This document shows positions 1,930 to 29,141 of a DNA stretch of 64,000 nt, one piece after another. This stretch comes from Cloacibacillus sp. An23. Its GTDB lineage: Bacteria; Synergistota; Synergistia; Synergistales; Synergistaceae. The notes under the pieces were generated by a model. That model was given only the letters and a program-made list of their open reading frames with translations, was not told the DNA's origin and did no database searches. The position numbers and the translations under genes are program-made. The stretch lies in the NCBI RefSeq assembly GCF_002159945.1, contig NZ_NFJQ01000001.1:1-64000 (forward strand), read 5' to 3'. Each line of letters begins with the position of its first letter. Within the stretch, counting starts at the first letter, position 1.

Positions 1930-4116
1930 ATGGCTAACGCTCCGATGAAGGTTCTCGCCGAATGGTCTTACGAGCCGGCGAAGATACACCACGGTTATTC
2001 AAAGGAAACTCTTTACATCGGCCTCGGCAATAAGGACGGGAATTATAAATTTGAGAAGCGCCCGGTCTCCGAGGATATGATTGAAAAATTCACTGGCGGA
2101 CGCGGCTTCGGTCTGAAGCTGCTCTGGGACGCAGTGACGGAGGACACGAAGTGGGACGACCCAGAGAACGAGCTCGTCATCGCGGGCGGCCCGTTCTGCG
2201 GCATCACGCAGTATCCCGGCGCGGGAAAGTGCTATTCGGTGTTTCTCTCGCCCGCAACGAAGCAGACCTATAACAGCAACGCGGGGGGATATTTCGCTCC
2301 GTTCTTGAAATTCGCGGGCTTCGACGCGATGGAGCTTCAGGGCAAGGCCGACAGGCCGGTCGTCATTTTCATCGACGGCGACAATCATAAGGTCACGATT
2401 TACGAGTCCACGCTCGAGGATCCGAACGCCTACGCGATTTCGGAGGATCTTCACGAGTATTTCGCTAAGGACGAGGCGGACAAGCGCACCATCTCCGTCG
2501 TATCTACCGGCATGGCGGCCCGCACGAGCTACTGGGCGGGGATGAATTTCAGCTTCTACGACGTACGCCGCAAGGCGGTGCGCCTCAAGCAGGCCGGACG
2601 CGGCGGCGGTGGCACCGTGCTGTGCGACAAGAACGTCGCGGCGCTAGTCGTAAAGCGCACGCATTTTACGGGGCTTGAAAACGACCCTGTAGATATCAAG
2701 GCCATTCAGCGCGCGGGCGCGAGCCTTCACAAGCGCATCCACGACCTCGACGACAAGCAGTGCAAGATGCGTTCCGTCGGCACGGCCCACCTCACCGAGA
2801 TCATGGACGCCTACGACCTGCTCCCGATAAACAACTACAAGTTCGGCAGCCATAAGGACATCGACAACATCAGCTCAGACTCCTACACGAAGCTCTTCAC
2901 GCAGGGCATGGCGGACGGCTGCTGGTACGGATGCTCGCTCGCGTGCGCGAAGGCGGTCGACCACTTCCCGCTCCAGACTGGGCCGTGGAAGGGCAAAGAG
3001 GTCATCGTCGACGGGCCGGAGTATGAGACGGCCGCCGGCCTCGGCTCTAACCTCGGGATTTTCGACCCGCTGTGGACGATAGAGGCGAACTTCTACGCCG
3101 ACCATTACGGCCTCGATACTATTTCACTCGGCACCGGGCTCGCCTTCGTATGCGAGTGCTACGAGCTCGGGCTCATCAACAAGGAGCAGACTCACGGCCT
3201 CGACCTCAACTTCGGGCGCAAGGCCGACATTATGGAGCTCATCCACCGCATCGCGCGCGGCGCGGACGAGTTCGCAATAGCCTGCGGCAAGGGCATCGAG
3301 ACGTCGCGCGAGTTCTTCGCGAAGGAATACGGCGCCGACATGGACACGATGATGAAGATAGGCATGGTATGCCAGGGGCTCGAAGCGTCTGAATACCGCT
3401 GCCAGGAATCCATCGCGCAGTGGGGCGGCTACTTCCTCACGCTCAAAGGGCCGCAGCACGACGAAGCGTGGCTCATCTTCATGGACATGGTGAACAAGCA
3501 GCTTCCGACATACGAGGACAAGGCCGAGGCGCTCTTCTTCTTCCCGAACTTCCGCCTCTGGTTCTCGCTGCAGGGCCTCTGCAAACTTCCGTGGAACGAT
3601 ATCGAGCCGGCCGACAACGGCATGAAGTACAAGGGCATCGAAGCGGCGAAGGTTCCGGAGCACCTTCAGAACTACCTCGACATTTTCGAGGCGATCACCG
3701 GCAAGCACCTGACGCAGGAGGGGCTCATAGAGCAGTCTGAGAAAGTCTACAACTTCGAGCGCATTTTCAACCTGCGCATGGGCAAAGGCACGGCGAAGTA
3801 CCATGAAGCGCCGGACCGCGGCCTCGGCCCCGTCTGGGAGGACGAATGGAACGCGCGTCCCGAATATTTCGACGAGAAGCTCAGCGAGTTCGGCGTCGAT
3901 ATAGCGGGGCTCACCGTGAAGGAGAAGATTGCGCTGCTCCAGCAGCACCGCCGCGAGCAGTGGAAGATGCTCAAGATGGCGGTCTACAAGCGCCGCGGAT
4001 GGAACAAGAACGGAATCCCGACGCTCGCGACGGTGAAACGTCTCGGCATAGACTACCCGGACGTCGTCGAGCTTCTGAAGAAGCATCTGAGGCCGGAGGA
4101 CGAATTCGAAGCGTAA
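1930..4116 (+). CDS. Aldehyde:ferredoxin oxidoreductase family, tungstopterin enzyme
   Basis: At 728 residues it is slightly longer than typical AOR proteins (about 600-700). Enzymes of this family oxidise aldehydes to carboxylic acids, or run in reverse, with a tungsten bis-pterin cofactor and one [4Fe-4S] cluster in the cytoplasm. Visible features are the N-terminal pterin-binding domain with the glycine-rich segment AGRGGGGTVL (about residues 221-230) and the cluster ligands Cys331, Cys335, Cys339 plus a distant Cys551 in GLCKLPWND. The first three cysteines are spaced CxxxCxxxC, whereas the best-known AORs have CxxCxxxC, so the substrate class is uncertain. AAGGAGG precedes the ATG. The ferredoxin upstream and MoaD-like gene downstream make a three-gene operon. 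A role in disposing of amino-acid-derived aldehydes is inference. Confidence 0.88.
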   Translation: MANAPMKVLAEWSYEPAKIHHGYSKETLYIGLGNKDGNYKFEKRPVSEDMIEKFTGGRGFGLKLLWDAVTEDTKWDDPENELVIAGGPFCGITQYPGAGKCYSVFLSPATKQTYNSNAGGYFAPFLKFAGFDAMELQGKADRPVVIFIDGDNHKVTIYESTLEDPNAYAISEDLHEYFAKDEADKRTISVVSTGMAARTSYWAGMNFSFYDVRRKAVRLKQAGRGGGGTVLCDKNVAALVVKRTHFTGLENDPVDIKAIQRAGASLHKRIHDLDDKQCKMRSVGTAHLTEIMDAYDLLPINNYKFGSHKDIDNISSDSYTKLFTQGMADGCWYGCSLACAKAVDHFPLQTGPWKGKEVIVDGPEYETAAGLGSNLGIFDPLWTIEANFYADHYGLDTISLGTGLAFVCECYELGLINKEQTHGLDLNFGRKADIMELIHRIARGADEFAIACGKGIETSREFFAKEYGADMDTMMKIGMVCQGLEASEYRCQESIAQWGGYFLTLKGPQHDEAWLIFMDMVNKQLPTYEDKAEALFFFPNFRLWFSLQGLCKLPWNDIEPADNGMKYKGIEAAKVPEHLQNYLDIFEAITGKHLTQEGLIEQSEKVYNFERIFNLRMGKGTAKYHEAPDRGLGPVWEDEWNARPEYFDEKLSEFGVDIAGLTVKEKIALLQQHRREQWKMLKMAVYKRRGWNKNGIPTLATVKRLGIDYPDVVELLKKHLRPEDEFEA

Positions 4117-5804: not shown

Positions 5805-5842
5805 CTTGACCTCCGCGCCGCGCCGACCGTGCGCGCGCCATG

Positions 5843-5885: not shown

Positions 5886-8204
5886 ATGTCCCGAACTCAG
5901 AAAAGCGACAAGGATTTTTCCCTGTCGAATAAAAAACCCAAAAAGAAAAAATCCTTAGCTTCAAAGCTCTTCGCATCGTTCATGCTGACAGCCGCGGTAG
6001 CCGCGGCTGTGATAGCCGTGGCTGCGCTGCTCTTCCTCAGGGAAATAACGGAATCGCTGCCGACGACGCCGGAGATACTCGCGCACGAGCCGAGCCTCGC
6101 TACGAAGGTCTACGACCGCAAGGGACGGCTTATCACGCAGCTTTTCCAGGAAAACCGCACGTGGGTGAAGCTTCAGAACGTCTCGCCGTGGATGGTGAAG
6201 GCGATACTCGCGGCGGAGGACGACAAATTTTACGAGCACGCCGGCATCCGCCCAATAGCGATAGCGCGCGCTCTGGTCATAGACATTTTCCACGGAGAAG
6301 CGAAGCAGGGCGCGAGCACGATAACGCAGCAGCTTGCGCGCAATCTGTTCCTGTCCAACGAAAAAACGATAATACGCAAGGCGCGCGAGATGGTCCTCGC
6401 CATACGCCTCGAACGCATATATACAAAAGACCAGCTCCTCGAGATGTACCTCAACACGATATATATGGGGCACGGAACCTACGGTATAGAGGCGGCGTCT
6501 CGGGAATATTTCGCGAAGCCGCCGGCGAAGCTCGACATAAACGAGTCGGCGACGCTAGCAGGACTGGTCGCCGCTCCCGAGAAATATTCGCCGTACCGCC
6601 ACAAGGGCAACTCGCAGGCTAGGAAGTCCTACGTCCTCCGCCGTATGCTCGACCTCGACTGGATATCGAAGGGCGATTACGACGCCAACATAAACAAAGA
6701 GCCGAAGCTGGCGCAGACAGAGCGCGTGGGCAATCCAATAACGCTTGAAGACGCGCCGTATTTCGTATCCTACATACTTTTCAGCCACCTGCTGCCGTCC
6801 TACGGGGCCGACAGGATATACCGCGGCGGGCTGAGCGTCCACACGACGATAGACAGAGACCTCCAGGCGAAGGGCGAGGAGATAGTTTCGTCGATGAAGC
6901 ATGAGGGCGCGCTGGTCGCGATAGACCCGAACACAGGCGAGATACTTGCGCTCGTCGGCGGACGCGACTTCAACAAGAGCAAGTTCAACAGGGCGACGCA
7001 GGCTTTCCGCCAGCCGGGTTCGTCGTTCAAGCCTATAGTCTACGCGTCCGCGCTTGAGCAGGGATACAGGGGCGTGGACCACGTGCTGGACGCGCCGCTG
7101 CTCTTCCCAAACGGCTGGGCTCCAGGCAACTACACATCGAACAAGTACGACGGCGAGGTCACACTGATGAAGGCGCTCGCCCGCTCTATAAACACCTCCG
7201 CCGTACGCCTGGCGCAGATAAGCGGCGTGCGCCACATAACCGACCTCGCGCGGCGCATAGGCATCACGACGCCGCACCTGCCCGACGACCTGTCGGTGGC
7301 GCTGGGGACGGCCAGCCTGACGCCGCTTGAGATGTCGGTCGCATATTCGGCTTTCGCGAACAACGGCTACCAGGTCAAGCCGTACGCGATAAAGGAAATA
7401 CTCTCGCAGCGCGGAGAAACGCTCGAACAGAACGGCCCCCAGCTCACGCCGGCCGTGACGCCCACCGTCGCCGTCACGATGCGCTCCATGCTGCAGCAGG
7501 TCACCTCGTGGGGCACAGGCGCACGCGCCAAAATTGCCGACCATGAGACCTTCGGCAAAACCGGAACTACAAACGAATGGACCGACGCATGGTTCGTCGG
7601 CGGCGTGCCCGGGCTCGTAGTCGTGGTCTACGTAGGCAACGACGACCATAAACCGCTCGGAGGCCGCTCGACAGGAGCCGCCGCAGCCCTGCCGGTGTGG
7701 AAAAGCTTCGTCGAATACGCGGTCAACACGCTCGCGCTGCCGTCTACTTTCTCTATCCCATCCGACGCTGAGGTGGAGGCCGTCCGCGTATGCAGGGCTA
7801 CAGGCTTCCTCGCCGCGCCGGGCTGCGAGGCGGCGGACCTGCTGCTTCCGCTTGGGCACGCTCCGTCGTCCCTATGCCCGTGGCACGGAGGGACTATCGC
7901 CGAAGCCTTGGCTGACGCCAACGCTCCAGTGCTGCTGCTCGCCCCGATAGACGAAGAGACCGACGTCAACCGCTACGCGCTTCACCTCGGCGGCGCACCG
8001 GCGGCGCAGCCGCAGCCTGGAGCGGCGGAAACGCCCGCGGAGCCGGCGCCGCCCGTCACGCCTACGCAGAAGCCGAAGAAGTCAGAGCCGTCAAAGGTCC
8101 CGAGCGCCACGGAAAAGAAGCCATACGAAAAGAGAAAATACGAAACTCAGGACGAAGTCGATAAGAGATACCAGGAGCTGCTTAAGCAGTACGGGATAAT
8201 ATAA
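5886..8204 (+). CDS. Penicillin-binding protein 1A, bifunctional transglycosylase/transpeptidase
   Basis: A class A penicillin-binding protein of 772 residues that polymerises and cross-links peptidoglycan at the outer face of the inner membrane. After a lysine-rich cytoplasmic tail there is one membrane anchor (about residues 32-54). The GT51 glycosyltransferase domain follows with the catalytic region EDDKFYEH (about residue 111) and QGASTITQQL. The transpeptidase domain has the nucleophile motif SSFK (Ser379), SIN, and KTGTTN. The C-terminus is a proline- and lysine-rich tail of about 80 residues. The start ATG at 5886 has CGGAGG just upstream; longer in-frame extensions lack a ribosome site. 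It is monocistronic, with an extended -10 promoter. Confidence 0.95.
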   Translation: MSRTQKSDKDFSLSNKKPKKKKSLASKLFASFMLTAAVAAAVIAVAALLFLREITESLPTTPEILAHEPSLATKVYDRKGRLITQLFQENRTWVKLQNVSPWMVKAILAAEDDKFYEHAGIRPIAIARALVIDIFHGEAKQGASTITQQLARNLFLSNEKTIIRKAREMVLAIRLERIYTKDQLLEMYLNTIYMGHGTYGIEAASREYFAKPPAKLDINESATLAGLVAAPEKYSPYRHKGNSQARKSYVLRRMLDLDWISKGDYDANINKEPKLAQTERVGNPITLEDAPYFVSYILFSHLLPSYGADRIYRGGLSVHTTIDRDLQAKGEEIVSSMKHEGALVAIDPNTGEILALVGGRDFNKSKFNRATQAFRQPGSSFKPIVYASALEQGYRGVDHVLDAPLLFPNGWAPGNYTSNKYDGEVTLMKALARSINTSAVRLAQISGVRHITDLARRIGITTPHLPDDLSVALGTASLTPLEMSVAYSAFANNGYQVKPYAIKEILSQRGETLEQNGPQLTPAVTPTVAVTMRSMLQQVTSWGTGARAKIADHETFGKTGTTNEWTDAWFVGGVPGLVVVVYVGNDDHKPLGGRSTGAAAALPVWKSFVEYAVNTLALPSTFSIPSDAEVEAVRVCRATGFLAAPGCEAADLLLPLGHAPSSLCPWHGGTIAEALADANAPVLLLAPIDEETDVNRYALHLGGAPAAQPQPGAAETPAEPAPPVTPTQKPKKSEPSKVPSATEKKPYEKRKYETQDEVDKRYQELLKQYGII

Positions 8205-8553: not shown

Positions 8554-9081
8554 CTATGTGTCAAGCTCGTAATAGTAAAGCCTGTTCCTCTCCGTGTCGA
8601 AAACCGCGAGCGTGAAGTTCAGCGACGCACGAGAGAGAATTCCTTCGCCGCCGTCTGAGGCAGCCTCCGAGCGCCGGTCTTTGAAGAAATAATATCCGCG
8701 TCCTATCTTCGGCAGCAAAGCTCCGCCGCCGCGCCCTGTCACGTACGGGCCGAACTGATTCGCCCCTTCGCGCAGGCCGTATGCCAGCGCAGTCAAGGTC
8801 CTGCCAAGAGGCAGCGGCTTCCATTCGCTGTTTTTTTCAAGCAGCGCAGAAAGCTCGCGCGCCGCGCCGCCGTCGAAGGCCGCAATGATAAAAGTGTGAC
8901 CGTCGCCGTGGCATCCGCCGTGCGTATCTTCGCTCCTAACGATTTCGTATCCGCGGGCGGAGGCGCCCGTTACGCGCGATATTTTAGCGGCCTCGCCGCC
9001 AGAGCGCATATAGACGGAAAGCGCAACTGCCGCTACGATGAGCGGTATTATATATTTGCGCAGAACCGCAGCGGCGTTCAT
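8554..9081 (-). CDS. Hypothetical membrane-anchored protein
   Basis: A 175-residue protein with one N-terminal membrane segment (about residues 8-25) and a soluble, presumably extracytoplasmic domain. The motif DTHGGCHGDG (about residues 52-61) resembles DTHGGFHGDG, which I recall from small anchored or lipoprotein-like proteins of anaerobes. No enzymatic motif is evident and no function can be assigned. It is the last gene of a minus-strand group and begins ten bases after the stop of the DUF6506 gene. Confidence 0.6.
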   Translation of the reverse strand: MNAAAVLRKYIIPLIVAAVALSVYMRSGGEAAKISRVTGASARGYEIVRSEDTHGGCHGDGHTFIIAAFDGGAARELSALLEKNSEWKPLPLGRTLTALAYGLREGANQFGPYVTGRGGGALLPKIGRGYYFFKDRRSEAASDGGEGILSRASLNFTLAVFDTERNRLYYYELDT

Positions 9082-27943: not shown

Positions 27944-28909
27944 TTATTTGGTAATCTTTTTGATATTTCTGATGTTGTCCGTGAACTGTCGCCAAAGTCT
28001 GCGTATGCAGTCGCAGGAATGTCTGTGGTAGTATCTGTCATTGACCGCAGCTTTATAAAAAGATTCAACGATCTCCTCTTTCCACGGAGTGAACAGAAGA
28101 TAATGCCAATACAGCATATCGGCGTTGCTGACCGTCACCATTTGCCACGGTTTGCCTTTGAGGTAAAAATGCCAGATTCGCCTGAGTGAAAATAAATCAT
28201 CGTATACCCTGTCAGGCGCGAAATTATATTTTCTATCCACATACAAAATATCCCCTATAAATTCCGCGTTTATGAAATCCTGATCCGGAGTCTTTGGACT
28301 ATAGCGCTTAATGTATGCTATGGCGTTTTTTGCCATTGTTAAATCTTTTCCGTATTTTGAGCGCATGTTATCAAGATTTACGACTAAGACACCTGAATTG
28401 ATATAGCGTTCGTAGTTCAGTCCACGTGAGTCCGTTTTTATATCACTTTTAGGGATCGTTATGTCAGGGAGTGAATGAACTTTTTCCCAGCAAACCCCGC
28501 ACACGCTGTGTTCATCGTCTTCCGCGAATTCGTGCCAAAGTTCAGAGATATCCAAAGTTACAACTACATCACAGTCTAGATATAGAACTTTTCTTATATC
28601 CGTCAACATCTCGTGCATACATAAACGGTATAGAGAGCCGCGGGTAAATCTTAAACAAGCATCGTCTATATCAGGAGTCAGACACCTATTGAAGTGGTTG
28701 GATATATCGATAAAACGGATATCAGCACGCGCAGAAGGCGAATTGGCGGCGCATGTTTCCTCCAATTTTATTTTATTACATTCCGTCAGCGTTTCGTCGT
28801 GCAGCACATGAAAAAACACATGCGCGCTCGTGTTCTGAAGGACAGAGGCGATAACAACGCCTGCGTGACGCGCGTAAGTCCCGTCTGGATCGTAAATAGT
28901 GAGAGCCAA
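27944..28909 (-). CDS. GT8-family glycosyltransferase, probably phase-variable
   Basis: A 321-residue cytoplasmic enzyme of glycosyltransferase family 8, whose members add galactose or glucose to lipopolysaccharide cores. Visible are the metal/UDP-sugar motif LDCDVVV (about residues 110-116), the INSGVLVVNL loop, the DQDFIN segment and the late HFYLKGKPW block (HxxGxxKPW in the family). The first beta strand VNLALTIYD begins two codons before the only usable in-frame start, a TTG (28909), so the true N-terminus probably lies upstream. A (CCAT)6 repeat sits there, behind a GTG with AAGGGAAGG that is one frame off. Codon and base usage are AT-rich compared with neighbours, suggesting acquisition by transfer. 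Confidence 0.85.
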   Translation of the reverse strand: MALTIYDPDGTYARHAGVVIASVLQNTSAHVFFHVLHDETLTECNKIKLEETCAANSPSARADIRFIDISNHFNRCLTPDIDDACLRFTRGSLYRLCMHEMLTDIRKVLYLDCDVVVTLDISELWHEFAEDDEHSVCGVCWEKVHSLPDITIPKSDIKTDSRGLNYERYINSGVLVVNLDNMRSKYGKDLTMAKNAIAYIKRYSPKTPDQDFINAEFIGDILYVDRKYNFAPDRVYDDLFSLRRIWHFYLKGKPWQMVTVSNADMLYWHYLLFTPWKEEIVESFYKAAVNDRYYHRHSCDCIRRLWRQFTDNIRNIKKITK

Positions 28910-28932
28910 GTTTACAGTAGTATTACCTTCGA

Positions 28933-28956
28933 ATGGATGGATGGATGGATGGATGG
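28933..28956 (-). repeat. Tetranucleotide tract (CCAT)6 at the 5' end of the GT8 gene
   Basis: Six perfect ATGG units on the plus strand (CCAT on the sense strand). Reading from GTG 28992 (ribosome site AAGGGAAGG) the frame runs through the repeat and stops at TAA shortly after. With seven or four units it would continue into the glycosyltransferase. Slipped-strand changes in such tracts switch surface-sugar genes on and off in several host-associated bacteria. Confidence 0.75.
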
Positions 28957-29141
28957 ATCTTTTTTCTGAAGTAATTTCAAGTTCCGCACGTCCTTCCCTT
29001 ATCTATAAAGCCCCAGCAAAGCTACACGGGTACAACTACATCATATCTAACCAACAACAACGGTACCTTTTGTAATTCCTCCATTGCGTAAACGGCACGA
29101 AGATTTACCTGCGCGCCGTTTACTTGATTTTTTCAGAATCT

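Follow-up and report, generated by a model that had tools for sequence, protein, structure and literature searches.

A CCAT repeat ahead of a family 8 glycosyltransferase gene in Cloacibacillus sp. An23 points to a phase-variable locus

The DNA analysed here, a stretch of 64,000 nucleotides from contig NZ_NFJQ01000001.1 of Cloacibacillus sp. An23 (the window), carries a family 8 glycosyltransferase (GT8) gene preceded by a short leader reading frame with six CCAT units. The locus is best explained as a simple-sequence-repeat contingency locus with slippage-driven phase variation, a reading to which we assign a probability of about three in four. In the proposed mechanism, ribosomes would load at the Shine-Dalgarno (SD) sequence at 29000-28991, begin at GTG 28989 or TTG 28980 and then cross the CCAT tract, in which slipped-strand mispairing during replication would add or drop units of 4 bp. 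Of every three states, one (4, 7 or 10 units) would yield a leader-GT8 fusion, a full-length enzyme with an N-terminal extension rich in Ser-Ile-His-Pro, and the remaining two would yield a short leader peptide only, so that cells of one clone would differ in whether they carry the sugar added by GT8. The genome as assembled is in a short-leader state. Slippage, use of the upstream start and a role of the enzyme in surface glycans are what we infer here. A phase-variable glycosyltransferase had been proposed at this site in a sequence-only reading, and the proposal is supported by the reading frames, by the loss of an ATG kept by the paralogs, by the intact gene and by similar tracts across the genome.

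Reading frames and starts around the CCAT tract

As the sequence-only reading had described, six CCAT units separate an SD-led GTG (28989-28987, with AAGGGAAGGA) from the GT8 region, and Tandem Repeats Finder called the tract as (ATGG)6.5, 26 bp long and 100% perfect (Table 1). On the minus strand the leader region reads AAGGGAAGGAC GTG CGG AAC TTG AAA TTA CTT CAG AAA AAA GAT (CCAT)6, directly followed by TCG AAG GTA ATA CTA CTG TAA AC TTG GCT CTC ACT ATT TAC GAT. The tract codes for Ser-Ile-His-Pro repeats and is free of stops in all frames. A consensus promoter scan of the minus strand gave no site immediately ahead of the leader. The second candidate start, TTG 28980, sits 9 nt after GTG 28989 in the identical frame, and the two are equally good leader starts, giving leaders of 22 and 25 residues, respectively, at six units.

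Table 1 Features of the GT8 locus, its paralogs and other repeat-bearing genes of the same genome
Feature	Position	Strand	Basis or remark
(CCAT)6 tract, AT + six CCAT	28933..28958	minus	Tandem Repeats Finder and sequence
Shine-Dalgarno-like AAGGGAAGGA of leader	28991..29000	minus	anti-SD duplex -7.5 kcal/mol
Candidate leader start GTG	28987..28989	minus	sequence, frame count
Candidate leader start TTG	28978..28980	minus	GTG 28989 frame; aligned with leader ATG of par1 and par2
Leader ORF, present 6-unit state	28912..28989	minus	25 codons, stop TAA 28914-28912
ACT codon, site of ATG start in par1/par2	28916..28918	minus	alignment
TTG, sole in-frame GT8 start as assembled	28907..28909	minus	third residue of strand VNLALTI
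GT8 coding region, conserved part VNLALTI to stop	27944..28918	minus	PF01501; DCD intact; no decay
Paralogs par1 and par2	G000:C1 about 298-300 kb; L004 1432-2412 and 2571-3563		same genome
(GACA)6.25 in GT2 glycosyltransferase	tract L052:15808-15832 = G000:C5:145808-145832; gene L052:15006-16007	minus	in frame as assembled
(ACTC)12.75 before signal peptide of Synerg-CTERM surface protein, 776 residues	tract L087:2276-2326 = G000:C5:42276-42326; gene L087:21-2351	minus	
Fused N6-methyltransferase and specificity protein, G10 in specificity part	L189:3820-7533, tract 7009-7018; G000:C6 about 47.0 kb		
Secreted surface-type protein, C9 14 codons after SD-led ATG	L094:3054 onward, tract 3095-3103; G000:C5 about 213.1 kb		
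Three prophage tail-collar genes (PF07484), G9/G10 leaders	L081:5123-5132, 5832-5840, 8630-8639; G000:C2 about 225.1-228.6 kb		

When the unit number was varied in silico and the leader frame followed at 2-10 units, 4, 7 and 10 units fused the leader to GT8 (345, 349 and 353 aa; 342-353 residues over both starts), and the earlier prediction that one extra unit or two fewer would join them proved exact. With 2, 3, 5, 6, 8 or 9 units the leader ended within 30 codons. At six units the GTG frame meets TAA 28914-28912 after 25 codons, soon after the repeat, as had been read by hand, and at 5 or 8 units it stops at a different, earlier TAA. In silico, unit number decides whether the gene shares its frame with an upstream start, a feature by which contingency loci are recognised.

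The leader SD is stronger than that of TTG 28909 (-7.5 vs -3.9 kcal/mol, the latter with a GAAGG motif 16 nt upstream); as a yardstick, the median is -6.6 kcal/mol for 315 long ORFs, each taken at its best start, and -2.6 for random positions. Between the preceding stop and the conserved domain, TTG 28909 is the single ATG, GTG or TTG in frame with GT8, and VN of the first conserved strand, VNLALTI, falls upstream of it. The sequence-only reading had drawn attention to this strand and argued for an earlier start, which is supported by the relatives: all those examined have an in-frame start at least three codons upstream of the TTG 28909 position, and the GT8 gene here has none. Constant expression from TTG 28909, with the tract a neutral repeat in the 5' UTR, is very improbable. 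A gene caller would pick this TTG, as no other GT8-frame start exists in the assembly, yet it lacks an SD at normal spacing and truncates the strand, no relative examined has to begin that late, and the bimodal tract lengths of the genome would be left unexplained.

The assembled six-unit state is out of frame and probably off. The earlier statement that the gene is currently out of frame therefore holds for the reading frame, but "off" is less secure because the leader stop lies only 2 nt ahead of TTG 28909 (TAA-AC-TTG) and could feed reinitiation there, and because par2 and, in one of their phases, the tail-collar leaders of the genome have a similar stop-start spacing. The same spacing speaks for a graded, leader-coupled switch, a rather unlikely alternative in which the leader is a separate small gene and the repeat sets three output levels. 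Six units would then allow reinitiation and some enzyme, leaving the present state partly on, 7 or 4 units would give the fusion and full output, and 5 or 8 units, with the stop further upstream, the least. Such a switch would have to use a TTG that lacks an SD at the usual distance and costs the conserved strand two residues, and none of the relatives examined needs to start at that point.

The glycosyltransferase and its relatives

The protein matches the GT8 profile PF01501 (E 6.3e-23; 82.1 bits vs a gathering cut-off of 24.3) and carries the DxD motif of the family as DCD in VLYLDCDVVV. LgtC belongs to GT8, and LgtC structures (1ss9/1g9r, E 1e-11) are the sole PDB sequence matches, a similarity that already gives a predicted GT8 fold. 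The LPS 3-alpha-galactosyltransferase equivalog NF011718 scores far below its curated cut-off (35.6 bits vs 461). Judging by the enzyme family, the product would modify LPS, and its probable role is the addition of a single sugar to LPS or another glycan of the cell surface. We know of no LPS structure for Cloacibacillus sp. An23. Two observations weigh against the phase-variation reading: the gene stands alone beside pstS, outside any LPS cluster, and in the same-genus genome G001 there is no GT8 gene upstream of pstS. PstS is nevertheless 97% identical there (positions 27944-29100 of the window compared with L059), and the gene was therefore recently gained or lost at the site.

Two paralogs in the same genome illuminate the leader. 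Both have an ATG directly ahead of the conserved strand (MIHIALA and MIQVALS), where the GT8 gene has ACT; judging from the alignment, the copy with the CCAT tract is the one that has lost this ATG. Par2 (at about 299.08 kb of G000:C1) retains both flanks of the tract (TTCAGAAAAAA.AT ... CCATTCGAAGG) with one CCAT instead of six. The two leaders are homologous, and the tract therefore either grew in the CCAT-bearing copy or shrank in par2. The par2 leader reads ATG AAA CCG GTT CAG AAA AAA AAT CTA TTT ACC CAT TCG AAG GAT TGT TAG CCT ATG and stops 3 nt ahead of the GT8 ATG (TAG CCT ATG), as a graded switch would have it, but the par1 leader has no stop near the GT8 start. No orthologs with other CCAT unit numbers were found, the GT8 gene being missing from the same-genus genome and the nearest homologs being 48-53% identical and repeat-free, and a scan of the contigs of named genomes for GT8 homologs matched only a Synergistaceae MAG and remote Firmicutes.

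The replaced ATG, together with a net loss of 4 nt, compared with par2, in the stretch from GAAGG to the first conserved codon, could also be read as inactivation, the gene being a duplicate that recently became a pseudogene with an incidental tract. This is unlikely, as 963 nt of GT8 run uninterrupted with the catalytic motifs preserved, and changes at conserved columns are not in excess, the 1 in 35 seen here falling inside the spread of 25 relatives. Chance does not yield the tract under a Markov null, and the other long tracts of the genome sit in intact surface and restriction genes.

Repeat tracts elsewhere in the genome and in Synergistota

Repeats were sampled from stretches amounting to 1.65 Mb of the 2.90-Mb genome (57%). 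Within these 1.65 Mb, perfect tetranucleotide tracts number 55, 12, 2 and 1 at 2.75, 3.0, 3.25 and 3.5 copies, and above 3.5 copies only three occur, with 6.25, 6.5 and 12.75 copies. In 5.0 Mb generated under an order-5 Markov null, no tetranucleotide tract exceeded 3.75 copies. The CCAT tract is a perfect non-triplet repeat beyond chance expectation in or before a coding region, it belongs to a gene whose product, by its enzyme family, would modify the surface, and the genome holds further such loci.

The 6.25-copy tract (GACA) lies in a GT2 glycosyltransferase of an LPS-type glycosyltransferase cluster, beside an LPS-heptosyltransferase-like gene; the protein has 333 aa at 6 GACA units but 70-78 aa if the count differs by one or two. 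The 12.75-copy tract (ACTC) lies just ahead of the signal peptide in the gene for a Synerg-CTERM surface protein, which has two starts in different frames, of which an SD-led ATG joins the gene at 11 or 14 units and a GTG without an SD at 12. A search for orthologs of these two genes, meant for a comparison of tract lengths, returned only remote homologs.

Homopolymers follow the same pattern, with 8 G/C runs of at least 9 in the sampled genome against 0.7-2.3 expected, and 4 of at least 10 against 0-0.33 expected, the latter including one methyltransferase-specificity gene and two tail-collar leaders. The fused methyltransferase-specificity protein has 1237 aa at G10 and about 1070 aa at 8, 9 or 11 G. 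Specificity genes of restriction-modification systems can be phase-variable, forming phasevarions, and this separate locus, with its G10 in the specificity part, resembles them and is a candidate phasevarion. The C9 secreted protein has 23 aa as assembled and would attain full length, 824/825 aa, with 7 or 10 C.

The three tail-collar genes have leaders of 13-34 codons that begin at an SD-led ATG; in one phase the stop of the leader overlaps the start of the collar gene or lies directly next to it, and in the others it comes early. They resemble phase-variable phage tail proteins that act via translational coupling. For the GT8 gene, the placement of a leader stop at the collar start in these G9/G10 leaders favours a graded switch. 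By extension, small leader ORFs with slippage tracts may act as translational rheostats with three outputs (fusion, stop-start coupling or early stop) at the GT8 gene (CCAT) and the three poly-G tail-collar genes, as part of a wider, undescribed set of repeat-switched genes in Synergistota, an idea that we hold with little confidence.

Across 188 Synergistota genomes, (CCAT)5 has a single occurrence, the GT8 locus, whereas (GACA)5 occurs in 21 genomes of 12 genera and (GAGT)5 in 4. Some GACA tracts of relatives lie in GT17, type I specificity and GNAT acetyltransferase genes. The long GACA tracts of relatives (L112-L131, L152-L171) reach 28 copies, and because many are intergenic or near contig ends, not every one is claimed as a switch. 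A reversed-pattern search was unusable as a null, GACA read backwards being a rotation of the same repeat. In two Synergistota genomes, VKVVVFTDALLN recurs ahead of the GACA tract.

Comparison with known switches

Slipped-strand mispairing drives such repeat tracts. In H. influenzae lic1A, lic2A, lic3A and lex2A, tetranucleotide tracts in the 5' coding region encode N-terminal tetrapeptide repeats, as the CCAT tract would. The closest parallel is the galactosyltransferase gene lgtC of the same species, which is switched by GACA, with 10 units ON and 11 and 12 OFF (PMC6479036 Table 1), and shares with the locus here the glycosyltransferase family, a tetranucleotide tract and one ON phase in three. 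It differs in unit and length (GACA with 8-38 units there, PMC2651432; CCAT with six here) and in phylum, the protein similarity is remote, and switching has been observed there, whereas the locus here is known from sequence. Since six units are short beside the published 8-38, the switching rate may be low; in H. influenzae, tetranucleotide tracts of 4-8 units have also been found at variable loci (PMC2651432). A second parallel is the GT8 gene of H. influenzae F3031/F3043, with a CAAT tract in its 5' region and repeat-free homologs (PMC2651432, section 3.14). There as here one copy bears the repeat and its homologs (par1/par2 in the present case) do not, although unit and organism differ.

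An invertible-DNA screen was positive for 1 of 2 Synergistetes species (PMC5903667), and no paper on repeat-based phase variation in Synergistota was found in the literature searched. The mechanism is long known; Synergistota is a phylum in which repeat switching appears undescribed. Since further surface-related genes of this genome carry comparable repeats, the cell surface is probably switched on and off at random in Synergistota too, as is well known from Haemophilus. Now that one genome has been seen to hold several such tracts, and GACA repeats are present in 21 of the 188 Synergistota genomes, phase variation in this phylum becomes testable, and a tetranucleotide switch on the same enzyme family in Haemophilus and here would, if true, be a case of convergence.
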